NCBI RefSeq assembly: GCF_024323335.1
Contig: NC_066580.1
Coordinates: forward strand, 89,017,391 to 89,081,390
Reading direction: 5' to 3'
Length of the DNA stretch: 64,000 bases
Origin: Lathyrus oleraceus
Lineage: Eukaryota; Streptophyta; Magnoliopsida; Fabales; Fabaceae
Shown: positions 1 through 17,067 of the stretch, piece by piece
How the letters are laid out: each line of letters begins with the position of its first letter
Position numbering within the stretch: position 1 is the stretch's first letter
The notes under the pieces: model-generated
What the model was told of the DNA's origin: nothing
What the model saw: only the letters and a program-made list of their open reading frames with translations
The model's database searches: none
Made by a program: the position numbers and the translations under genes

Positions 1-730
1 TAACGTAAGGTTAAATCCGGTATAAAGTTGCACAATAGTTTCCGGTGTAGAAACTATTATGCGAAAAATATCTAAAAGCTAAAACGGGAAAGGTAAATTT
101 GCAAGGGAAAAAGAATGTAAAGCTTGCAAAAGAAATAAATAAAATAAACAATGCTGGAAAAGAAAAATAAGCAAAAGCTAAAACAGAAGGTTTGAAAAGC
201 TTCGGCAGAGTAGACGGCAAAAGAGGGGAGAGGAAGCGGAACCCTTTTAGGTTTCTAATGTAGCTATTTATAGTAGTGCTTCTAACTGCTTTTTGTTTCC
301 CACGAGTCTTCAGCATGGCTAAATACACGGCGTGGGCATAGGACACGAACTCTCTCAACGTCTCTTCAATTCTTCTGAGGGCGTGACTTGCGCCAAAAAG
401 CTAGTGGAATGGTGTGACGCTCGTCACACCATGTGTGACGCTCGTCACAGGGGTGCTTTTAGTGTGACGCTCGTCACAACCCTTGTGACGCCCGTCACAG
501 GCACAACGTGCGCTTTCTTTGGGCTGGGCTTGGTCTTTGATATTTGTTTCCTTTTTACTCCTTTCTACACCTCCTTTCTTCCCTTTTTCACTTTTGCTTC
601 AAAATGGATACCTGACATAAATAGCAAGGAAATACTGCATAATATCTGATAAAATGAGATAAACTAAAGTAAATGATAATCTAATCTAATTGAATTAAGT
701 CTTAAAATGTGATATAATTTCGTGTTATCA
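1..730 (-). repeat. 3' LTR of the Athila element (partial)
   Basis: Position 1 aligns with 11924 and the two copies run together to the terminal TATCA at 730 and 12654. It carries the LTR TATA box (265-272, read on minus) and four TGACG-type palindromes (411-499). Short ORFs across it on both strands are chance readings of LTR sequence. Confidence 0.95.
411..499 (-). promoter_or_regulatory. array of four TGACG-N2-CGTCA palindromes in the LTR
   Basis: Four inverted repeats built on TGTGACG-NN-CGTCACA lie at 413-428 (extended to a 20-bp palindrome, 411-430), 434-449, 463-478 and 484-499. TGACG is the core of as-1-type sites bound by TGA bZIP factors, and here two cores face each other across 2 nt. 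The array lies upstream of the LTR TATA box on the minus strand. The role as enhancer is inferred. Confidence 0.6.
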
Positions 731-1839: not shown

Positions 1840-3141
1840 CTAAGGCTGCCTTCCGCCTCTGGTTCTTGGACCTGGTGATCTTTGACGTATGTCTAAGTTG
1901 TCGAACCTGCTAAACAACTCAGTAAACCGCTGGTCGGTTATGGCATTCCGAGCATCCTGTTGCTGTTGCATTTGACGCATCATCTGCATCATCTCTGCAT
2001 TCTGTGCCTGCATACCATCGATAGCATCCATAATGTCGTCGTTGGTTGCAAGCCTTCTTCGTCGACGACGTTGGGAGGATGGGCCAGTTGTATTGCCGGA
2101 AGGGTTGAGCGGGACTGACTGTTGTGTAGGCGGATGATCACCTTGTTCCATTTCTTCAAACTCATCTGTTTGTGGGTTTGTTTGTAAAGGCTCGGTGGTT
2201 TCAGGAGCGTTTAGATCATAGAGGTGGCGGTCGGGGTTTGTGACATCAGTGAGGCCAGTATTTGGTAGAACAACGCTTGGGACTGCCTGGTTGTTCACCA
2301 TAAGATAATATCCTCCGCCTACTCTGTTTTTAATCAGGCGGCTGGAGCGGCAATAGCTGATATCCATAGACAGGGGAGGTAGGGATTCTAAAGTTTGGAG
2401 TTTATCCCCTAGGTTCAGGCCAAGTGCTATGGATGTTATTAATCCACCAATTATAAAGGGTTGCCGGCCTCTAGCACATAAGGTGCGGATATGATGAAAG
2501 AGAAAAGAGGCGGCGTTTACCTGAGTATCCGGTTCGAAAACGCACTGGAGGAAAAATAACTCCTTTGAGTTGACCTTACTGTTGTTTGGTCTTCCAAAAA
2601 GTGTGTTTTGCAGGATACGGAGAAAATAACGGATGGTGGGGTTATGTATATGGGAGAGAAGGAGTTCTTCCCAGTTGTAGGTCTCGATACCGGAAATTTT
2701 CTTAAAAAGGCCAAAAACGCCAACTGTGTTCCAGTTTGAGGTTGGAGGGATTCTGGCATGAAGCAGACCTTCTGTGGGAAAATGTAGCATGGTACTCAAT
2801 TGGCGTTGGGTTAAGGAGTACTCGGTGTTCAACATACGGAAGGTTGCGGTACCGGTCAGAAATTCATCCTCACCGGCGGGAGTGGTGTAGTCGTAAGAAC
2901 TTAGGAATTCTAAGGTTAGGGAAGGGTAGGTGGGTTGGTTATGAGTGCAAAGGAAGGTTAAATCGGCTTTACGGAGCATCCACTCGATACCTTGGAGTAA
3001 GCCTAATTGTTGCAAGCAAGGTAAATCGGGGTACCTGGTGGAAACGACGCCTCGCTGCTGGAAGCGCTCGAATTGCTCTTGCTGATAGTTGTCATCTCCG
3101 GATCGGAAGATGATATTTCCGAAATTTTGATTTCCCGCCAT
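1840..3141 (-). CDS. ATHILA-type ORF protein, second copy in env position
   Basis: An open 433-codon frame downstream of gag-pol. It resembles the family known as ATHILA ORF-1 (function unknown), placed where envelope-like genes sit in Athila elements. I see no signal peptide or transmembrane segment, so an envelope function is not supported. The conserved core (residues about 70-270) includes LTLEFLSS, FRMLNTEY, HNPTIRYF and IIGGLITS words shared with the neighbouring ORF at 3815-5152, so the pair looks like an old tandem duplication. The C-terminus has a run of arginines after SSQ, a possible nuclear localisation signal, then a Met/Gln-rich predicted coiled coil. Upstream are a TATA box 96-103 bp before the ATG and TGACG palindromes, suggesting a separate promoter. 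Confidence 0.8.
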   Translation of the reverse strand: MAGNQNFGNIIFRSGDDNYQQEQFERFQQRGVVSTRYPDLPCLQQLGLLQGIEWMLRKADLTFLCTHNQPTYPSLTLEFLSSYDYTTPAGEDEFLTGTATFRMLNTEYSLTQRQLSTMLHFPTEGLLHARIPPTSNWNTVGVFGLFKKISGIETYNWEELLLSHIHNPTIRYFLRILQNTLFGRPNNSKVNSKELFFLQCVFEPDTQVNAASFLFHHIRTLCARGRQPFIIGGLITSIALGLNLGDKLQTLESLPPLSMDISYCRSSRLIKNRVGGGYYLMVNNQAVPSVVLPNTGLTDVTNPDRHLYDLNAPETTEPLQTNPQTDEFEEMEQGDHPPTQQSVPLNPSGNTTGPSSQRRRRRRLATNDDIMDAIDGMQAQNAEMMQMMRQMQQQQDARNAITDQRFTELFSRFDNLDIRQRSPGPRTRGGRQP

Positions 3142-3814
3142 TGTGATGAATTTTGAAGGAGTGATTTGGAGTGGAAAAGAATTGTATATTTGATATGAGA
3201 GAATTGTTTGTGGTGAATGAAGGAGGTTTTGGTAGGTATTTATAGGAGAAGGATTGGAAGATAGAAAGAAAAAGTGGTTGAAGAGTAATTAAGTGTGGTT
3301 AAATGAAAAGTGAATGGGGAATGTAAAAAGGTAAGGGGTGTAACGTTCGTCTCCAACGGCTCCCTAACGTTCACATGTCTGAGGGGCGTTACGCTCGTCA
3401 CAAGGGTGTGACGTTCGTAACAGGAGTTATGCGTGCCGTTCGTCATGGAGTGTGTGACGCTCGTCACACAGTTATTTTGGCAGGGCATTCAGCAGCGCTT
3501 CACATAATTAATCTGGAGATGAATTTATTTTGATTATTTTGTTTTATTTGGTTTTTAGATTGTTCTATTTAATTTAGCTAATTAATTTGTGTTGCATGCT
3601 ATTCTATTTCACATAATAATAATTCATTCTGAGTAACAGTAGAACAGTAGAGAACATAGCCATTGCATAAATTAAATAAAAGCTTTAATAAAATTAACAT
3701 AATGTAATACAGGAAGGGAAAATAATGAAATGAAAGGAAAATAAATGCGAACATGAATTCAAATAACATTAATGAAAAATCTAGCCTAAAACTAAATAAC
3801 TTAGAAAGAAATAA
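3142..3814 (-). other. spacer between the two ATHILA-type ORFs
   Basis: The part nearest the downstream ORF (3142-3490) holds the candidate promoter. The rest (about 3491-3814) is AT-rich and I see no gene or repeat in it. Confidence 0.7.
3237..3470 (-). promoter_or_regulatory. candidate internal promoter for the 1840-3141 ORF
   Basis: A TATAAATA box (plus-strand tatttata, 3237-3244) lies about 95 bp before the start codon. Upstream of it on the minus strand are diverged copies of the LTR palindrome at about 3337-3352, 3388-3401, 3407-3422 and 3434-3447, and a perfect 20-bp copy at 3451-3470. In the 5' LTR the same TATAAATA (12188-12195) has its palindromes at nearly the same distance. Promoter function is inferred from this matching layout. 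Confidence 0.55.
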
Positions 3815-5152
3815 CTAAATTCCATCTATCTTCGGATCTCTGGCCGGAGGAGCAAAAGAGTTAACACGATGCCGCAACATACGTAACTGACTTGCCGTGC
3901 TGCTCATGTATTCTAGGACTGCATGCCTCAAGTTGTGGAAATCTTCCCTGAGGGCGTGATGCTCTGACATCAAGGCTTCAATGACGGTTTTAATATCTGT
4001 TCCTGGCATATGATGTCGGAGATCAGGCATGGCTGATTCTTCGGTCAGGACAGGCTGAGGAGGAGGATCAAAATCATAGTAGCCGGAAGGTGTCTGAGGG
4101 TCAGATTCAGCATGAGAGATATGGTCAACATAGTGCTCATAGTCATCACAAATCTCATAGTCCTGGATGGATTCAGTGGATCTAGCAGGAGTAGGGGTTT
4201 CGTTCAGGTTGTAAAGCCAGTTACTGCTGTTATGAACGCTAGTCCTAGGATCGGGCATGGTGAATAAGCAAAGAACCTGGTTATCAATCATAAGCTCAAA
4301 CTCATCAGACCCTAAGTTCGCTATGAACATAGTGTTGAAGAGGAAGGGTATACTCATAGTAGTAATGCCACAAAAAGGGTTCAGGTCAAGCATAGGCTGA
4401 CGCAATCCAATAGCATTACCTATCATGGTTATCAAACCGCCTATTCTAATGGGTGCTCGCTCATCCTGGATAAGGTGGTCCAAATTAGCTAACATAAAAG
4501 TAGCGCCGTTTACTGGACGGTTCTGGGAAGCACAAAATATGATGAAGAGTTCATCACGTGAAACTGAAGTACTATTTGGCTTCTTCCCAAATAAAGTGTG
4601 GGTCAGGATCTTATGGAAATAGCGAAAAGCCGGGTTATGTATGTTTCCAGAGAGAAACTCATGTTCTTCAGGCTCATCATTTCCAGTCAGCTTACCCCAA
4701 AAGTGTTCAAGCTCTCTATATTCAAAAAGTTCTTCCTGGCTTACAGTGAATGTATCAAGGGAGGTAGGAAAACCCAAAAGGTTGGTAAAGTCTCTAATAT
4801 TAAATTGGTACTCCATGTTGAACATTCTGAACTGAATAAAACCTCTGCTAATTCCTTTTCCATGGCTGGGTAGATAGATTAGTGAACTAAGGAATTCTAG
4901 TGTGAGTCTCCGGTAGGTGGTGAAATGTCTCAGGATAGGGGATGTCTCCCATCCTATCTGACTCAGCAAATACAGGACACTCTGTCTCAGTCCAAGGGCA
5001 GTCATAGCCCAATCATCAGCATATAAACTAGGTAGCATCTCTCTAGCGGCTAATTCTTCAAACTTTTGTTTCTGAGCCATTCCTCTGAACTTGATACCCA
5101 TACGATCAATATGTCCCATCTGGTTAGTGCTAGCTAGAGAAAAAGAAGACAT
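3815..5152 (-). CDS. ATHILA-type ORF protein, first copy in env position
   Basis: An open 445-codon frame following gag-pol. It shares the ATHILA ORF-type core with the ORF at 1840-3141: LTLEFLSS, FRMFNMEY, HNPAFRYF, a TLFGKK segment and IRIGGLIT appear in the same order. Overall similarity is low, so the copies split long ago. The acidic, Pro-rich linker (about residues 315-375) is followed by a His/Leu-rich helix likely to form a coiled coil near the C-terminus. No membrane segment is visible. The function of this family is unknown. It may be expressed from a spliced or read-through transcript of the LTR, since I see no clear TATA box directly in front of it. Confidence 0.8.
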   Translation of the reverse strand: MSSFSLASTNQMGHIDRMGIKFRGMAQKQKFEELAAREMLPSLYADDWAMTALGLRQSVLYLLSQIGWETSPILRHFTTYRRLTLEFLSSLIYLPSHGKGISRGFIQFRMFNMEYQFNIRDFTNLLGFPTSLDTFTVSQEELFEYRELEHFWGKLTGNDEPEEHEFLSGNIHNPAFRYFHKILTHTLFGKKPNSTSVSRDELFIIFCASQNRPVNGATFMLANLDHLIQDERAPIRIGGLITMIGNAIGLRQPMLDLNPFCGITTMSIPFLFNTMFIANLGSDEFELMIDNQVLCLFTMPDPRTSVHNSSNWLYNLNETPTPARSTESIQDYEICDDYEHYVDHISHAESDPQTPSGYYDFDPPPQPVLTEESAMPDLRHHMPGTDIKTVIEALMSEHHALREDFHNLRHAVLEYMSSTASQLRMLRHRVNSFAPPARDPKIDGI

Positions 5153-5383: not shown

Positions 5384-8300
5384 TTAAATATAATTGATGG
5401 GTCCTGGGGGCGTTTCGTCTAAGTGTAGAATTTGCGAATCCTCGTTGGTTTCCGCATAGTGATAATGTTTCAGACGTTGCCCGTTTACGGTGAACGGTTC
5501 TGTAGATTGTCCTTTTATTTCTACCGCTCCACTGGGAAAGATTTTAGTGATATGAAAAGGTCCTGACCATCTGGATCGTAGTTTTCCCGGGAATAACTTT
5601 AGTCTAGAGTTAAATAAAAGTACTGTGTCGCCTTGCTTGAAGATTTTCCTTGATATACGCTTGTCATGCCATTGTTTTGTTCTTTCTTTATAGATTTTGG
5701 CATTTTCATAGGCGTCTCTTCTGAGTTCCTCTAATTCGTTTATGTCAAGGATTCTCTTTTCACCGGCGGCTTTATAATTCAAATTTAAATTTCTAATAGC
5801 CCAATAGGCTTTATGTTCTAATTCTACCGGGAGGTGACAGGATTTTCCATAAATGAGCTTAAATGGGGTCGTCCCTATGGGGGTTTTATAAGCAGTTCGG
5901 TATGCCCACAAAGCTTCTGGTAATTTCAATGACCAATCTTTCCTTGAAGTGGCGACCGTTTTTTCTAGTATTTGCTTGATTTCGCTGTTAGACACTTCCA
6001 CTTGTCCACTGGTTTGAGGGTGGTAAGGTGTTGCTATCCTATGTCTCACTCCATATTTAAGTAGTAGTTTTTCGAGTACCTTGGATATAAAGTGCGATCC
6101 ACCATCACTGACTACTATTCTTGGGATGCCAAATCTCGGAAATATTATATTTTTAAAGAGTCTAGTTACTACTCGGGTGTCATTTGTTGGAGAAGCTATA
6201 GCTTCGATCCACTTTGATACGTAGTCAACTGCCACAAGTATGTATTTGTTACCGAAAGAGGATGGGAAAGGTCCCATGAAGTCTATCCCCCACACGTCGA
6301 AAATCTCTACTTCCAAAATACCTTTTTGTGGCATCTCGTCACGTCTAGATATGTTTCCCGTGCGTTGACATCTGTCACACTCCTTAATAGCCGTATGCAC
6401 GTCCTTCCAAATAGTTGGCCAATAAAAGCCAGCTTGTAGGATTTTAGAGCAGGTCTTGGATGTACTTGTGTGTCCACCATAAGGAGCGGAGTGACAGTGT
6501 TGGATTATATTTTCTACCTCTTCTTCGGGTATACATCGACGGAAAATACCATCGGGGCCTCTTTTGAAAAGTAAGGGATCATCCCAGTAATAGTGTTTTA
6601 TGTCGTGGAAGAATCGTTTCTTCTGCTGGTAAGATAAAGTAGGTGGAACTATTCCGGCAGCTAAATAATTGACTAGAGCAGCGTACCATGGTGTGACAGA
6701 TATAGCTAAGGTGGTTTCTACTTGCATGTCGGAGTTGTTCTCTTCCAAAGTAGCTATGAGTTTATCATACGAGAAATCATCATTAATTGATGTTCTTTCC
6801 GGTTCAAGGTTCTCAAGTCTAGAGAGGTGGTCTGCTACTACGTTTTCAGTTCCTTTCTTGTCCTTGATTTCTAAGTCGAATTCTTGTAGTAACAAGATCC
6901 ATCTTAGGAGTCTAGGTTTAGCATCTTTTTTTGTTAAAAGGTACCTGATAGCAGCGTGATCGGTGTAAACTATTATTTTGGCTCCTACCAAGTAAGAACG
7001 AAATTTATCTAGCGCAAATACCACTGCTAGGAGTTCTTTCTCGGTTGTGGCATAATTCATCTGTGCTTCATCCAGGGTTCTGCTAGCGTAATATATAACG
7101 TGAAGCTTTTTATCCTTTCTTTGTCCTAGAACAGCACCTACAGCATAATCACTGGCATCGCACATTATTTCGAATGGTTCATTCCAGTCTGGTGTCTGCA
7201 TAATGGGTGCGGAGATCAATGCTTGTTTAAGAGTTTGAAATGCTTTTAAACAGTTATCGTCGAATATGAATTCAGCATCTTTCATCAACAGTCCGGTTAA
7301 GGGTTTAGTTATCTTAGAGAAGTCTTTGATGAATCGTCGGTAAAAACCGGCGTGTCCTAAAAAGCTTCGTACTTCTCTCACGGTTCTTGGGGGTTGAAGA
7401 TTTTCGATTACCTCTATTTTGGCCTTGTCTACTTCAATTCCTCTGTTCGAGATGATGTGTCCTAAAACAATTCCTTCTTGTACCATAAAGTGGCACTTTT
7501 CCCAATTAAGTACTAAGTTTACTTTTACACATCGCTCAAGAACTCTTTCCAGGTTTTCAAGGCATTCTTCGAAACTTTGTCCGTATACAGAAAAGTCATC
7601 CATAAATACTTCCATGATGTTTTCGAGAAAGTCGGCGAAAATCGCCATCATGCATCTTTGAAAAGTTGCAGGGGCATTACATAGACCAAACGGCATTCGT
7701 CTATAAGCGAAAGTACCAAAAGGGCATGTGAATGTTGTCTTTTCTTGGTCATCAGGGTGAATTGGTATTTGAAAGAAGCCTGAATAACCGTCTAAATAAC
7801 AGAAATGTGAATGTTTAGCTAATCGTTCTAACATTTGGTCAATGAATGGTAAAGGGAAATGATCTTTTCGGGTTGCTTTGTTTAGTTTCCTATAATCAAT
7901 GCACATTCTCCATCCCGATTCGATTCGTTTAGTTATAGTTTCTCCTTTTTCGTTTTCAATAACGGTTATGCCTCCTTTCTTTGGTACAACGTGTACAGGA
8001 CTAACCCATTTGCTATCAGATATAGGATATATAATACCTGCTTCCAATAACTTGGTTATTTCTTTCTTTACTACCTCACTTAGGATCGGATTTAGTCTTC
8101 TCTGGTGTTCCCTAGAGGTTTTACAGTCTTCTTCTAACATGATGCGGTGCATACAAATAGAAGGGCTTATTCCTTTAAGATCGGTTATGTGGTATCCTAG
8201 TGCGGTTGGGTATTTTCTTAAGATATGTAGGAGTTTTTCTGTTGCGAGTCTTCCTAGATCGGCATTAACTATCACAGGTCGTTCAAGTTCTAAGTCTAGG

Positions 8301-10615
8301 AATTCATATCTCAGATTTTTGGGAAGTGTTTTCAAATCAGGGGTTGGTTTGTTAAGACACTGCGTAGGGTCCGGTGTTATTGCTAAACATTGTTTAGATT
8401 TGTCCTCTAAAAGATAGTCTGATGATTTGTCTTCTCCTGACTTTGCTTCTTTTATGCATTCATCGATGATATCCATGAAGTAACATGTATCTTCTATTGT
8501 AGGTGCTTTCAAGAATTGGGAAAGAATGAATTCAATTTTCTCTTCACCTACTTCGAAGGTGAGTCGTCCTCGTTTTACGTCTATGATTGCACCGGCAGTT
8601 GCTAAGAATGGTCTTCCTAGTATAATAGGTGTAGTATCATCTTCTCTAATGTCCATAATTGTGAAGTCAGTGGGAATGTAAAACTGACCTATGCGTACGG
8701 GAACGTTTTCAAGGATTCCTACAGGATATTTGATGGAACGATATGCTAATTGCACAGACATTTTGGTCGGTCTTAATTCTCCCATTTCCAGTTTCTTACA
8801 TATGGATAAAGGCATAACGCTAATTCCAGCTCCTAAATCGCATAAGGCTTTGTCGATGACAAATTTTCCTATGTGACAGGGTATAGAGAAACTACCCGGA
8901 TCCTTGAGTTTAGGTGGCATGTTTTGGATTATAGCGCTACATTCGGCAGGGAGTGTAACGGTTTCGCTATCCTCAAGTTTCCTCTTATTAGAAAGGATTT
9001 CTTTTAAGAATTTAGCATATGAGGGCATCTGCGTAATAGCTTCGGTAAACGGAATTGTAACGTTTAATTGTTTTAGGAGATCAACAAATTTTCTAAATTG
9101 GCCTACATCTTTGGTTTTAACAAGCCTTTGAGGGTAAGGTATAGGTGGTTTGTAAGGTGGTGGAGGTACATAAGGTTCCTTCTTTTCTAGGGTTTCCTTA
9201 TTACTCTCTTCCTTTTCCTTAGGTTCACTTTCCTCAGTAGATTTCTTAGGGTCTTGGTTTTCTATCCTTGGGTCAGACGGTCCTTCCACTTCCGTTCCAC
9301 TTCTTAATATAATTGCATGAGCTTGGCTTCTCGGATTGGGTTGGGGCTGTCCAGGGAATGTACCAGTTGGGGCAGCAGTAGGTGCTTGTTGTTGAGCTAC
9401 TTGAGATATTTGTGTTTCTAGCATTTTGTTATGGGTAGCCAAGGCATCTACTTTGCTTGCTAGTTGTTTAAGTTGTTCGCCAGTATGTATGTTCTGGTTT
9501 AAGAAATCTTTATTGGTTTGTTGTTGGGATGCTATAAAGTTTTCCATCATGATTTCCAAGTTGGATTTTCTAGGGGTATTATTGTTAGGATTCTGTTTCT
9601 GATATCCCGGAGGTATAGATGGGGCTTGATTTGGAGACTGTCCAGGTGCGTATAAAGCATTATTACTCTTATATGAAAAGTTTGGATGGTTCTTCCAATT
9701 TGGGTTATAGGTATTCGAATAGGGGCTTCCTTGAGCATAGTTTACTTGCTCTGCTTGGATTCCAGTCAAGAGTTGACATTCCGCAGGAGTGTGGCCTTGG
9801 ATTCCACAGACCTCGCAATTCTGAGTTATAGCAACCACGGCGGCTGGAGGTGATACATTTAAACTTTCAATTTTCTGGACCAAAGCATCCACTTTTGCAT
9901 TGACGTGATCAAGGTTACTTATCTCGTACATGCCAGTTTTCGGTTGAGGTTTTTCCACCGTTGTTCGTTCGGTTCCCCACTGATAGTGGTTTTGGGCCAT
10001 GCTCTCGATAAGCTGGTAAGCATCAGCATAGGGTTTGTTCATTAGTGCACCACCTGCAGCGGCGTCTATTGTTAACCTTGTATTGTATAAGAGACCATTA
10101 TAAAATGTGTGAATTACTAACCAGTCTTCCAAACCATGGTGTGGGCAAAGTCTCATCATGTCTTTGTATCTTTCCCATGCTTCGAAAAGAGACTCGTTGT
10201 CTTTCTGTTTAAATCCGTTTATCTGGGCTCTTAACATAGCTGTTTTGCTTGGCGGAAAATATCGGGCAAGAAAAACTTTCTTCAACTCGTTCCATGTGGT
10301 GACTGAGTTGGAAGGAAGTGATTGAAGCCATCTTCTAGCGCTATCTCTTAATGAGAAAGGAAAAAGACGAAGTCGAATTGCCTCTGAAGTGACACCATTA
10401 GCTTTAACAGTATCAGCGTATTGGACAAATACGGATAAATGAAGGTTTGGATCTTCGGTAAGATTTCCAGAGAATTGGTTTTGTTGCACAGCCTGCAACA
10501 GCGAAGGTTTAAGTTCAAAGTTGTTTGCTTCGATTGCGGGCGGAGCAATACTTGAATGCGGTTCATCTTGTGATGGAGCGGCGTAATCTCTAAGAGCACG
10601 AGCTGGTTCTGCCAT
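5384..10615 (-). CDS. Athila gag-pol polyprotein, intact
   Basis: An uninterrupted 1743-codon frame encodes the whole replication machinery. Gag core is at about residues 80-215. The zinc knuckle is C267-C270-H275-C280 (CX2CX4HX4C). Aspartic protease has DLGAG at 593-597, the DLG form being usual for Athila. Reverse transcriptase is at about 850-1045 with catalytic FMDD at 1004-1007. RNase H is at about 1148-1266 (D1153, the E of TEKEL, and TDH near 1220). Integrase has its HHCC zinc site near 1373-1416 and DDE residues at D1445, D1504 and E1540, with 35 residues between the last two. There is no chromodomain. The start ATG lies 252 bp after the primer site, close to the family layout. No stop or frameshift is seen, so the product is plausibly active. 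Confidence 0.95.
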
Positions 10616-10866: not shown

Positions 10867-10884
10867 TCCCCGGCAACGGCGCCA
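10867..10884 (-). other. primer binding site, tRNA-Asp type
   Basis: On minus it reads TGGCGCCGTTGCCGGGGA, complementary to the 3' end of plant tRNA-Asp. It starts 6 nt after the 5' LTR, as is usual for Athila elements. Confidence 0.93.
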
Positions 10885-10890
10885 AAAACT

Positions 10891-12654
10891 TGATCGCTCG
10901 ACTGGGTGAGTCGAGAATGGGATACAAACTGCAAGTGCACAGTTCTATCGCGTAGTTTTAAAAGATATCGATCCCACAGGGACTTATGAATCGATATACC
11001 GTTATCTAAGGTTACTACGTAAATCTAAGGTGAAAATGTTTGATTGTTTGGGGAAAAACTAAGAGCTAAACTAATATCTAGATTAAATATTAATGGAACG
11101 GATATCGGTATGTAGTTCGTCAAAACTAGGGAATCAAGTCTTTGTCGGTTTCTTGGTTTTAAAATGAATCGTTTCGGTTAACTTTATTGGTTAAAGGTTT
11201 TATCTCAAACTCTCGCTCTGTTGAATAAACCATGATTTTATATTAATGTAGCTTTTCACTTATAATTAAGTCAAAAACCATATTTTGAAAACAATAAAGT
11301 TGCAGAAACTCCTTTTAAGAAAATACTGACCGTTTTAAACACCCTTATCTCAAACTCTCGCTCTGTTGACTTAGGTTATATAATCAAATCCAAATGCTTA
11401 ACTCTCGTCCTCACATTCAATCTTTAAAAATACTTTTTGGAAAAGGCCAGAATTTAATTAACTCTAAAACTTGCTCTCGCCCTGATCTAGAATTAATGCC
11501 TAACTTACACTGTCCAGTTAAAATCTCAAACTCTCGCTCTATTGATTTTAACTTCTTTATGTCTCTTACTTTTGTAAAAAATCTTGTTATTAAACCTGTA
11601 AGTTGAGACCGTAAAAAGATTGATTTTGATTTTAAGTTTAGATAGACCGACTCAGTCTTGATCCCTTATTCTGCTTACTTTACATACCGATACCTAGGCA
11701 AATTAGCCAGACATGCTAAATAAATAAGAATTTATATCATGCATAAACAGACTCATTCCAGGCAGATAATATAGATAAATAATAAAACAAAATATTAAAT
11801 AATGATTAAAGAACCTGAATGCGTAATACAATAGTCTTGAACACTCTACCACAAGCCGGTAGGATTTGTTCTTGGATTCTTCAATTAAACAGTAAATTAA
11901 ATCAAGGAAATAAAACTGGAATATAACGTAAGGTTAAATCCAGTATAAAGTTGCACAATAGTTTCCGGTGTAGAAACTATTATGCGAAAAATATCTAAAA
12001 GCTAAAACGGGAAAGGTAAATTTGCAAGGGAAAAAGAATGTAAAGCTTGCAAAAGAAATAAATAAAATAAACAATGCTGGAAAAGAAAAATAAGCAAAAG
12101 CTAAAACAGAAGGTTTGAAAAGCTTCGGCAGAGTAGACGGCAAAAGAGGGGAGAGGAAGCGGAACCATTTTAGGTTTCTAATGTAGCTATTTATAGTAGT
12201 GCTTCTAACTGCTTTTTGTTTCCCACGAGTCTTCAGCATGGCTAAATACACGGCGTGGGCATAGGACACGAACTCTCTCAACGTCTCTTCAATTCTTCTG
12301 AGGGCGTGACTTGCGCCAAAAAGCTAGTGGAATGGTGTGACGCTCGTCACACCATGTGTGACGCTCGTCACAGGGGTGCTTTTAGTGTGACGCTCGTCAC
12401 AACCCTTGTGACGCCCGTCACAGGCACAACGTGCGCTTTCTTTGGGCTGGGCTTGGTCTTTGATATTTGTTTCCTTTTTACTCCTTTCTACACCTCCTTT
12501 TCTTCCCTTTTTCACTTTTGCTTCAAAATGGATACCTGACATAAATAGCAAGGAAATACTGCATAATATCTGATAAAATGAGATAAACTAAAGTAAATGA
12601 TAATCTAATCTAATTGAATTAAGTCTTAAAATGTGATATAATTTCGTGTTATCA
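10891..12654 (-). repeat. 5' LTR of the Athila element, complete (1764 bp)
   Basis: Bounded by TGAT at 10891 and ATCA at 12654, next to the PBS on one side and broken Ogre protease on the other. It contains the TATA box and palindrome array. In its left half are three near-identical 23-bp words ATCTCAAACTCTCGCTCT(G/A)TTGA at 11202-11224, 11347-11369 and 11523-11545. No gene is present. Confidence 0.95.
12188..12423 (-). promoter_or_regulatory. LTR promoter: TATA box and TGACG palindrome array
   Basis: TATAAATA on the minus strand (12188-12195) is preceded 139-227 bp upstream by four palindromes (12334-12422), the same as those at 411-499 in the other LTR. Transcription would start roughly at 12160 and run leftward into the leader and gag-pol. 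The start site is an estimate from TATA spacing. Confidence 0.65.
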
Positions 12655-15376
12655 CGAACCATCAAAAGCTTTGATGATTACCCCACTATATCTCATAAGC
12701 TCTCCTTGGTATGATAGCTTTGACATAGTTGACTTCGGAAGAACATTCAGTGACGACCCGGTGTCAATAAGCACATTTGACAAAGCATCATATTTGCAAT
12801 TCATAGAGATATGCAAATCCAAATTATGATTCCTACCCTCCTCGGAGAGTTGTTCATCACAAAAACTAAGATTGTTGCAGGAAGTGATGTTAGCCACAAT
12901 ATGATCGAATTAATCCACTATAATATCATGTTCTACAAAAGCTTCTTCCGGAACTCTTTGTATTGTTTCTCTATGTGCTTCTGAAGTCATGAGCAGAGAT
13001 AACACTGAGATCTTTAAGGGGGTTTGGAGTAGCTGCTCCACCATATTAAACTCACTTCTTTTAGTCAAACGAAGTACCTCATCATCATCGTTGGCCTTCG
13101 CATCCCTAGATTCACCAGACTTACCGTTTGAAGCACCAACTGGATCTACAACAGGCATTTCTACCTTCTTTCCAGCAACTGATTCTTCTTTGCCCTTGGG
13201 GAACACCGACCCAAACATCTTGACCACTGCGGGTCATCTTGGTAACATCAACAATGCTCACCATTGAACTAGTCGTAGGTAACAGGACCTCTTGACAACC
13301 TTCTATCATTGTAGTATTATACCGATACGGTATAGCTTTATCAGATGAATACGGGACTGGGCCTGCTAACCGTATTACCAACGACGATACTGATTTATTG
13401 ATGACATTGTTACTATTACTGTTGTGGTACTGGATTACCAACCTCTTTGGCTGCTTGAAAACGGGCACTATGACATTGACATCGTCATCTACATGACGGG
13501 ATTGAACAATCTGAATCATGCCTTCATCCATCAGTCGCTGGATGTCCCTTTTCACAACTTCACAACCCCTCGGGTTAACACTACAAATAGCACAACCATC
13601 ATGGTCATGCTCACAATCACTTACGAAACAAACATCCTTATGCATTTGCACTAAGGACCTGCTGATATAACCCACATCAAAAACTTTAAACTCTCCAGGG
13701 CAACCATCCACCATATTCACGGAAGAGTTCCCATGAGCGGGCAAAGGATTTGCTTTCACATTCGGCGCACGATCCTCGAAGGACACCATTCCACTCTTCA
13801 TCAGCTTTTGAACCTCATACTTGAGTGGGTAGCAGTTTTCGATATCATGCCTAAGTGCTCCTTGATGGAAAGCACAACGGAGCTCAGGCTTGTACCACCA
13901 AGGAAGTGGTTCTGGAATCTGTGGCGGGTTTCTTGATTGGATTAGATTCTTGAGAACCAAGGAATGATATAATTCTGCATAAGACATAGGAATTGGGTCA
14001 AAAGAGACCTTTTTCCTCTCAAAGTTCTGTTGATGATGATTGTTGTTGGTATTGTTGTTGTTGTAGGTGTTCGTTCGTTGTTGCGATTGTTGTTGACGTT
14101 GTGGTTGTTGAACTGGTGTTGATTGTTGATTAGAAAATACCGGGATAGCGGAAGATACTTGATGATGATGATGACGGGATGATTCATTCCTTCTGATCTG
14201 AGGCCTCCTCTGCCTCCCACTACTTATTGCATTCGCTTCATTGTCCTTCTTCTTGCTAAAACTACTACCATATGTCTTACCCGTTGATGCCTCATCCTTC
14301 GATAAACGTCCCTCTCGGACTCCTTCCTTAAGCCTCATCCCCATGTTTACCATTTTGGTAAAGTCACTAGGGGAACTAGCAATCATTCGTTCATAATAAA
14401 ATGAACTCGGGGTTTTCAGAAAGATCTTTGTCATCTCTTTTTCCTGCAAAGGAAGAGTGATCTGGGAAGCCAACTCCCTCCATCTCTGCGCATACTCTTA
14501 AAATGTCTCCTTATCTTTCTGAGACATAGACCTCAGTTGGTCTCTATCATGCGCCATGTCCATGTTGTACTTATACTACTTGACAAAAGCCTCTCCCAGG
14601 TCATTGAAAGTACGAATGCTGGCACTATCCAACCCCATATACCAATGGAGTGCAGCACCGGTCAGTCTGTCTTAGAAATAATGAATCAACAATTGATCAT
14701 TATCAGTCTGAGTAGACATCTTGCGAGCATACATCACTAGATGACTGAGCGGACAAGTATTCCCCTTATACTTTTCAAAGTCAGGTGCTTTGAACTTCTT
14801 TTGGATCTTGATGTTGGGCACTAAACACAACTCAGCAGCACTCTTTCCAAACAAATCCTTACCACTTAGCGTCTTCAATTCCTTGCACAGCTCAAGAAAC
14901 TGATCCTTCATTTCATCCATTTTCTCGTAGACATCCGGACCCTCAGACAGCTCAGAGTGATAAATGGTGTCCTCTACACGAGGTAAGGTGTGCACAACGG
15001 GAGGTGGCACGGACATGACCGGGATAGATGCCAGCATGGAAGCAATAGTAGGCGCAAAGCCTTCAGGCATGAAGTAGGACGACATTTCCCACGGGAATCC
15101 GGTAGGCATAGTGGGCGCAAAATGAGTGGTAGCAGCAGGCATGGTAGAGGTTGCCACCTCTAAAATAACCATCCTCGCAGGAGGAGTTGCAGGCGTCGGA
15201 GAAGCTTGACTCTGAGCAGCAAGAACTGACTCCATCATGGCAGTCAGGCGGGCGATCTCGTCTTTCATCTCTCTATTCTCTTGCTCTAGATGCTCCATAA
15301 TTTTGAGATGATTAGCGCGGGTGTTGTACTGATGAGACAACTTGGCTAAAGAACAGAAGAAACACCAATGAGACAT
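12655..15376 (-). pseudogene. Ogre E1 gag-pro, decayed and cut
   Basis: N-terminal coiled coil (EHLEQENREMKDEI) is followed by a Gag core (LHWYMGLDSAS, then AQRWRELASQI). Next come a Gln/Asn/His-rich linker, a CX2HX5HX4C motif (CAFHQGALRHDIENC), a second Cys/His-rich stretch (CEHDHDGCAICSVNPRGC) and the aspartic protease site DTGSS near 12770. Several stops (for example after IHYF, after FVK and after ETF in the Gag core) and a frameshift near 13200 break the frame. The protease ends at KAFDGS where Athila entered; the E3 copy at 38717-42075 shows what followed. Gag would form the particle and protease would process it, but this copy cannot. Confidence 0.85.
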
Positions 15377-15567: not shown

Positions 15568-17067
15568 CTAAGGATCTCTAACAACGTCAGAAGATCTGGC
15601 TGAAGGCGCGTACTTCCTTAGAATGCAACGGATCTCGGTCTCAAAAGAAGCCATCATTTGAGTCTTCTCGAGGACAAGCTGATCAAAAATCTTCTTCCAA
15701 GCAACGGAAGGCTGAGGCATGATAAAAGATGAAACCTATGGCTCTCTTTGTCTCTTCGTTACTCGGTATTCAAGTAGCTCAATGAGTGCATCTTTGTCCT
15801 TAGACTCCAACCGCAACTCCTCATGCTTCTTTCTTAAAGCACAGAAACGCTCTTCCCGTATGTCCTTCTCTTGCTTCATCTTGGCGAGCACGTCTTCCAA
15901 CTCCTCTACATATTGGTTAGGGAGAGTTAATGGCTCAACCATAACCATAGACATAGGTCTTTCACAAGGATAAGGCATCTTCAACTCAAAAGCTCTCTTC
16001 TTCACCCAAAGAGTGTAAGCTTCCAAAGCTACACAATTGCACGGACCAAGCTCGGATCTTCCTTTCCTATGCACATTATGCCAAGCATGCATAATCTTCT
16101 GCTTCAAATGTTGGGGATCTTTACCCTCTTGATAGAAAAGACCTTCTAACAAAGTGTTATTAGGTTTGTCTCTCAAGGGGAACCCAAGTTGACGACGAAC
16201 CAAAGCAGGGTTGTAATTAATTCCTCCTTGTGTACCAATGAGAGGCACATTAGAGAATTCACCACAACTATCAATAATCTCCAAACTGCTTAAAGACGGA
16301 TCATACCAAACCATATCATCATTAGTGAGAGACATAAGTCTGTGAGACCACCTTAGACATTGTTTGTTCTCCACAAAAGCAGGTGTCTGAGGCAAGTGTG
16401 AAATAAACCACTTGTACAAAAGAGGAATGCAACATACGATAGTTCCACCACCCTTAGAGTTACTTATATGCAAAGAGAAACAAATATCACCCAATAAAGT
16501 AGGCACATGATTCCCAATCAAGAAAATTCTAATGGCGTTAACATCAAAAAAACCGTCAATGTTAGGGAACAAAGCTAATCCATAAATGAGCAACACAAGG
16601 ATAGCTTCAAAAGCATCCACACTACCAGCTTGAGCAAAAGTAGTAGCTTCCTTGATGAGAAAATTATATGGAAACCCAAACAATCCTCCTTTCTTCACTC
16701 AATAAGCCTTTATCTCAGACTTCTTCAAGTGAAGAGCTTCAACAATAATACTAGATCGGGGAATCTCCTCCAATCCACTAAAAGGCACTCGACTAGAAAT
16801 AGGTATCCCCAAAAGATGAGAATACTCCTCCAAGGTAGGCACAAGCTGAAAATTTGGGAAAGTGAAACAGCGGTAAAGAGGATCATAGAACCGCACCAAT
16901 ACACTCAGAAGTCCTTCAACCACATCAGTAGATAAGATAGACAAAAGCTTCCCATGACGTTGTTTGAAGTCCAAGGGATCTAATACAAAAGATGCTAACT
17001 TCCTTAACTCTTTCAAGTCGGGGCATCTAAAACTGTACTTCTTAGTGTTCCTTCGTCCACAATCCAT
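15568..17067 (-). pseudogene. Ogre E1 ORF1, two in-frame stops
   Basis: Extra ORF found before gag in Ogre elements, function unknown. Automatic annotation often labels such proteins as a plant domain of unknown function (DUF7745, from memory). It starts at ATG 17067 (MDCGRRNTKKYSFR) and contains FYDPLYRCFTFPNFQLVPTLEEY, LLIYGLALFPNIDGF and PLLYKWFISHLPQT regions, then a C-terminal coiled coil. One stop at 16699-16701 replaces the Trp seen in the E3 copy (TGG to TGA). A second, UAG at 15736-15738 after REP, is also present in E3. The frame then stays open 56 codons to 15568. A TTTTCAG acceptor-like word lies just before the ATG. Confidence 0.8.

Follow-up and report, generated by a model that had tools for sequence, protein, structure and literature searches.

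The DNA analysed here is a 64-kb stretch of the pea genome (Lathyrus oleraceus), called the window below. It contains an Athila-type long terminal repeat (LTR) retrotransposon, inserted on the minus strand, and our main finding concerns positions 3140–3470 of that strand. This segment would best be understood as an internal RNA polymerase II promoter of the element, placed before the open reading frame called ORF3 and carrying palindromes that it shares with the LTR promoter. To this joint reading, a promoter of its own plus shared palindromes, we assign a probability of roughly 0.55. Taken separately, it is quite probable that ORF3 has an internal promoter, and likely, if to a lesser degree, that the palindromes are functional in both promoters. 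The layout itself, with palindromes and a TATA box before ORF3, is real and more than chance would give. The initial annotation of this DNA had described a TATA box with palindromes upstream of it both in the LTR and internally, followed in the latter case by an ORF of 433 codons. All of this is borne out, with coordinates and distances that are right to within 2 bases. The features are the following, with lengths in nucleotides (nt) or amino acids (aa):

3339–3468, minus strand: internal palindrome cluster, one perfect and four degenerate copies
3140–3343, minus strand: G-free stretch of 204 nt, containing the TATA box and the ORF3 leader
3237–3244, minus strand: internal TATAAATA, a sequence match
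3211–3214, minus strand: putative transcription start, at CA steps 31 and 34 nt from the start of the TATA box, judged from sequence only
1840–3141, minus strand: ORF3, 433 aa, ATHILA ORF-1 family
12336–12422, minus strand: LTR palindromes, four copies of TGTGACGARCGTCACA, upstream of the LTR TATA box
12188–12195, minus strand: LTR TATAAATA, a sequence match

One family of palindromes, TGTGACGARCGTCACA, thus has four members upstream of the LTR TATA box and five upstream of the internal TATAAATA. The four palindromes of each LTR copy deviate from TGTGACGARCGTCACA by 0, 0, 0 and 1 mismatches, while the internal ones have 0 (3453–3468), 4 (3432–3447), 1 (3407–3422), 2 (3387–3402) and 3 mismatches (3339–3354). 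With up to 3 mismatches allowed, the 16-base pattern has 21 matches in the window (both strands counted), compared to 0.15 expected and to at most 2 in 100 shuffled windows, and all 21 lie either in the two LTR copies or at 3387–3468. The core ACGANCGT is present ten times on the sense strand of the element (3 + 4 + 3) and is absent from both strands of the remaining 51 kb of the window. When 9-mers are counted in the non-coding DNA of the element, using one LTR copy and leaving out words of fewer than three letter types, those seen at least four times are pieces of the palindrome, except AAGAAAATA. The internal cluster (3337–3470) has an observed/expected CpG ratio of 1.38 and a G+C content of 0.55, the values for the whole element being 0.80 and 0.39.

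We have also considered the palindromes as RNA hairpins. The degenerate internal copies were found to keep 5, 6, 5 and 4 of the 7 dyad pairs. In the copy at 3432–3447 one outer pair is, judged by eye, altered on both sides and still paired, but the other changes break pairs. Since this holds for most changes in the degenerate copies, the hairpin option is disfavoured.

We now come to the TATA box. TATAAATA is found on the minus strand at 3237–3244, at 12188–12195 and at 265–272, the last of these in the 3' LTR copy. By itself the octamer means little, since the window has 7 of them on its two strands against 3.8 expected, and at least 7 were obtained in 8 of 100 shuffles. Its position before the ORF3 ATG is unusual. 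Namely, the internal TATAAATA lies 95 nt ahead of the ATG, and when the 300 nt before the ATG are dinucleotide-shuffled, an octamer falls between −200 and −40 in 5 of 5000 cases. The internal site is also alone among the seven in having a long ORF no more than 200 nt further on (433 codons, with 57 as the maximum for the others; the site at 272 is too near the edge of the window for this measure). A further octamer of the element, at 1288–1295, has neither a palindrome nor a long ORF nearby.

The stretch between the last palindrome and the ATG, read on the sense strand from 3343 to 3140, consists of 68 C, 61 A and 75 T, with no G in 204 nt. No other G-free run in the 64 kb, whichever the strand, is longer than 65 nt, and the longest one in 2000 shuffles of the ORF2–ORF3 spacer is 94 nt. 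Upstream of the ORF3 ATG, whose context is CATCACAATGGCG, the sequence is free of AG over 209 nt and of ATG over 235 nt. The predicted minimum free energy of folding of the 204-nt stretch is 0.0, compared to a median of −37.5 for 204-nt windows of the element. Because it has no G, the ORF3 leader is without AUG, splice acceptor or predicted secondary structure. This argues against a spliced message and for a short mRNA of its own with ORF3 at the first AUG, and it strengthens the internal promoter reading. G-poor leaders are strong translation leaders in plants, the classic case being the omega leader of tobacco mosaic virus. A short mRNA gives no reason for the absence of G from the 100 nt upstream of the TATA box.

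Two other causes of the G-free run were considered and rejected. Escape from CG/CHG methylation is not distinctive for it, as the run is one of 17 stretches in the window that reach 200 bp and have neither CG nor CHG. G-to-A hypermutation can be dismissed, as the run shows no surplus of A.

Once the palindromes are set aside, no more resemblance is left between the internal region and the LTR than chance would give. The best ungapped match is at the TATA box and its surroundings, with 15 identical bases out of 17, and 7 of 60 shuffled pairs score as high. The proposal of the initial annotation that the intervening sequence is dissimilar and that the region is not a simple LTR copy thus holds. 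With the similarity confined to the palindromes, either these have spread alone or only these have been kept. Relatives of the promoter DNA were sought in contigs, in searches that may omit records of the window's own genome. Viral contigs searched with ORF3 gave 8 stretches matching the pattern, viral contigs searched with an alignment of ORF2 relatives and three ORF3 rows gave 36, and genome contigs searched with ORF3 gave 14, none of which was confirmed. The exact 16-mer was matched once in each of 28 viral contigs, which we took as chance.

On the basis of these results, the following scenario can be proposed. A short ORF3 mRNA would begin some 30 nt downstream of the first base of the internal TATA box and have a leader of roughly 70 nt, and with this leader being G-free the ORF3 ATG would be the first AUG. 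The palindromes would be the binding sites of a sequence-specific factor acting on both the internal and the LTR promoter. As the likeliest single candidate for this factor we suggest the element's own ORF3 protein (or that of ORF2, or both), which would resemble the VANC proteins discussed below in binding short repeats in the element's non-coding DNA and keeping its promoters open. ORF3 would then raise both its own expression and that of the genomic RNA. The co-regulation with the genomic RNA suggested in the initial annotation is to be regarded as putative. That the factor is encoded by the element is the more tentative part of this scenario, and we hold it to be less likely than not.

Plant bZIP proteins of the TGA class bind TGACG, and the main rival explanation is that such a host factor reads the shared palindromes at the internal promoter, while ORF3 does something else. 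Most palindrome arms indeed carry TGACG or CGTCA, at least one such arm being kept in all four LTR copies and in four of the five internal ones, and no new protein function is required. However, TGACG alone is common (the rest of the window has 28 TGACG and 20 CGTCA on one strand), whereas the paired core is confined to the element, which means that the paired site and not the half site is the repeated unit. In addition, the possible match to the VANC21 fold would give the element a candidate factor of its own. We regard the host factor as possible but rather doubtful. Another option is that ORF3 is expressed from spliced genomic RNA, like the env of barley Bagy-2, the TATA box and palindromes being functionless. 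Splicing is described as reported for Bagy-2 and predicted for Athila elements (PMC7264820, PMC2829016). In the pea element, with no AG within 209 nt of the ATG, a spliced leader must include the whole G-free stretch, and the palindromes and TATA box are left unexplained, so that this route appears unlikely.

The internal region could also descend from an old LTR promoter that recombination between elements left behind and that has since decayed. It agrees with the LTR in its palindromes and TATA box, in their order and roughly in their spacing, but the similarity outside the palindromes is within the range of the shuffles, and a decayed remnant should not contain a 204-nt G-free run ending at an intact ATG; we consider this origin distinctly improbable. 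Finally, the G-free tract could serve as an unstructured internal ribosome entry site for ORF3 in the full-length RNA, with the TATA box as a by-product of composition. This would account for all 204 nt being unstructured, including the part upstream of the TATA box that is superfluous for a 70-nt leader. However, TATAAATA arises in just 18 of 5000 shuffles of the tract itself, and the palindromes, being common to the LTR and placed upstream, point to transcription. This explanation is thus very improbable.

We now turn to the proteins. ORF3 is preceded by a second ORF, ORF2, which sits between pol and ORF3 and had been overlooked in the initial annotation. Both belong to the ATHILA ORF-1 family (PF03078, E-values of 6.6e-24 for ORF3 and 1.7e-19 for ORF2), and they share 31% identity over 337 aligned columns. 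The pattern scan of the window finds no palindrome in the region upstream of ORF2; a TATAAAA-like run is present there in AT-rich sequence. ORF3 has a globular domain at about 5–310, a run of six arginines at 358–363 and a long C-terminal helix at 367–419.

The initial annotation had placed ORF3 at the position of env. While an internal promoter with sites shared with the LTR is still the best reading, the label 'env' is not supported. The usual hydropathy cut for a membrane span is 1.6. The maximum 19-residue mean was found to be 1.37 for ORF3 and 1.48 for ORF2, and the N-terminal maxima are −0.74 and −0.06, respectively, so that by this simple hydropathy test neither protein has a segment resembling a membrane span or a signal. 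Moreover, ORF3 belongs to the ATHILA ORF-1 family, and the single solved fold picked out for its globular domain in this analysis is that of a DNA-binding transposon protein. No NCBIfam match was found for either ORF. A sunflower Athila ORF of the same Pfam relation is predicted to be nuclear, according to the part of the source on it (PMC11728184).

To place the two ORFs among their relatives, an alignment and a tree of 46 sequences were made, comprising 20 of a first set of 21 relatives, 24 of a second set of 38 and the two ORFs of the window; P0021 was omitted, as it has no ATHILA domain. The tree has an ORF3 group of 21 rows (one from Vicia villosa) and an ORF2 group of 24 (three from Trifolium pratense); P0020 stands by itself on a long branch. 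The support is 98/92 for the ORF2 group; that for the ORF3 group is 88/51 and rises to 98/98 when P0017 is left out. The tree was drawn with a midpoint root, and several long branches meet in it. The duplication thus seems, with this caution, to predate the split of these legumes. Runs of at least four lysines or arginines are found in 15 of the 21 ORF3-group rows (some of the other six being fragments); the 24 rows of the ORF2 group and P0020 have no such run. In pea, the locus tags KIW84_050721 (ORF3-like) and KIW84_050722 (ORF2-like) are consecutive, which suggests that the ORF pair is present in another copy of the element.

Among the families listed by the fold tools, the one solved fold picked out for the globular domain of ORF3 is VANC21, and the predicted folds of both ORF3 and ORF2 (the latter modelled from 27 of the second set of 38 relatives) may be similar to the VANC21–DNA crystal. 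Foldseek at E 0.001 or better gave no match for ORF3 in PDB or BFVD, and none for ORF2 in PDB. DUF1985 and DUF287 are not among the Pfam matches of ORF3 or ORF2 up to E 1, nor among the 25 of 40 families listed for the 46 relatives. A profile search for a sequence bridge to VANC, with E up to 1, returned 36 proteins among 7996 candidates, which have PF03078, PF20167 or no Pfam family, and our literature search found no report linking Athila ORFs to VANC. We consider the VANC link as suggestive.

According to the parts of the sources that deal with it, VANC21 binds the 9-mer YAGTATTAY, which recurs in VANDAL21 outside the coding sequence, also in introns of the element's genes, and it causes loss of methylation, while VANC6 has other motifs (PMC5735166, PMC10398659). 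VANC–DNA structures were shown as unpublished at a meeting in September 2025 (PMC12859917). In both systems there is an element-encoded protein and a short motif repeated in the element's non-coding DNA, and the predicted folds of ORF3 and ORF2 may resemble the VANC21–DNA crystal. The VANC motif also occurs inside the VANC gene, in an intron, and the pea element has its motif copies at the promoter of ORF3, the candidate VANC-like gene. The systems differ in that VANC belongs to a DNA transposon (VANDAL) and the pea element is a retrotransposon, that YAGTATTAY is not palindromic whereas the pea motif is, and that DUF1985 and DUF287 were not found in ORF2 or ORF3. The chain from a VANC-like fold to DNA binding and on to anti-silencing is one that we infer for ORF3 from predicted structure.

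The internal promoter of foamy viruses serves a self-encoded transactivator. It is a second promoter beside that of the LTR (PMC7828637), as we propose here, in an animal retrovirus with a true env to which no sequence relation is claimed. Closer to the pea element, palindromic repeats have been described in the LTRs of 13 Sireviruses by Bousios et al. in 2010, with linker copies in 9 of 9 Sireviruses with env and in 0 of 4 without, 77 of 79 of them upstream of env (PMC2829016). As presented there, the linker copies support an internal env promoter, which was not conclusively identified, and the boxes have a CpG-island-like setting. The layout is therefore already known in another superfamily: as in the pea element, one cluster of palindromes precedes the LTR TATA box and another the ORF at the env position, and the CpG ratio of the pea internal cluster corresponds to the setting described. 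However, Sireviruses are Ty1/copia elements, while the pol of the pea element is Ty3/gypsy-like; the core there is CGG-CCG (in all but Tnd-1) and here ACGARCGT; and the pea element offers a TATA box that can be named and a G-free leader. In Grande, a Ty3/gypsy element of maize, the accessory gene23 likewise lies in the 3' part and is served by a promoter of its own, but it is antisense to gag-pol, while ORF3 is in sense, and the account cited reports no shared palindromes for Grande (PMC7264820). The title of a 2013 paper cited there calls its product a nuclear protein.

The remaining parts of the element are:

10891–12654, minus strand: 5' LTR, starting at 12654, the lower end inferred from the TGAT...ATCA ends adjoining the primer-binding site
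10867–10884, minus strand: primer-binding site, beginning TGGCGCCGTTGCCGGGGA
5384–10615, minus strand: gag-pol in one open frame of 1743 codons, with gag, reverse transcriptase, RNase H and integrase
3815–5152, minus strand: ORF2, 445 aa, ATHILA ORF-1 family, without palindromes upstream
1–730, minus strand: 3' LTR, starting at 730 and cut by the edge of the window

The two LTRs are 99.59% identical over 731 nt (2 mismatches and 1 gap), which indicates a young insertion. If the 3' LTR equals the 5' LTR in length, the element would be about 13.7 kb long. We take the primer-binding site to be of the tRNA-Asp type. This typing leans partly on a figure legend on Diaspora and Calypso (PMC1142308). 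The Pfam domains along the 1743-codon frame follow the Ty3/gypsy order of reverse transcriptase, RNase H and integrase, and both ORFs of the 3' part have the ATHILA ORF-1 domain, which is given as present in 16% of Athila elements (PMC6317226). Among annotated proteins, close relatives are found in Lathyrus oleraceus. The pea family PIGY, listed at 13,600 bp (PMC2206039) and assigned to the Athila lineage (PMC3059260), fits in host, lineage and length and is a candidate identity only; its description may already cover two 3' ORFs.

Some side observations can be added. A short hairpin with a GAGGACAA loop and a polypurine tract behind it is present in two places on the minus strand, at 1758–1789 just after ORF3 and at 735–763 adjoining the 3' LTR. 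The two stems have different sequences, yet pairing is preserved in each (AACATTG..CAATGTT and TTGCTTG..CAAGCAA). Athila4 and Calypso are known to have an extra polypurine tract (PMC2829016). The 5' LTR has, downstream of its TATA box, three copies of a 25-mer with the sense core AGAGCGAGAGTTTGAGAT (11200–11224, 11345–11369 and 11521–11545), which shows no palindromy and could be a candidate target for the second paralogue. Antisense to gag, at 10131–10230 on the plus strand, there is an Rfam match to snoR71 (RF00097; 46.8 bits, cut-off 40), which may be false or derived from a retroelement. Around the element, at 12655–64000, both strands have broken gag-pol pieces, some of which we take to be Ogre-like; among them is a DUF7745 match at 15736–16335.

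What is new here is a known layout in a new superfamily, a core promoter that can be identified, and a new suspect for the function of 'env'. An internal promoter of the kind inferred by the Sirevirus authors would be at hand in the pea element. One can speculate further that the Athila 'env' ORFs are a branch of VANC-fold, sequence-specific anti-silencing proteins, that the one pea paralogue with its own promoter carrying the palindromic target of the LTR forms a self-reinforcing anti-silencing switch, and that the link between palindromes and env in Sireviruses is the same strategy evolved a second time; we consider this picture as a whole possible but less likely than not. The role of env-position ORFs in plant retrotransposons is described as an open question (PMC7264820). 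A study of January 2026 presents an Athila clade of sunflower in whose LTRs methylation drops, and it asks, and leaves open, whether Athila ORFs modulate their own epigenetic state (PMC12844716). With a predicted fold that may be VANC-like, a candidate 16-bp target and two promoters bearing this target, the pea element would turn that question into a binding assay.
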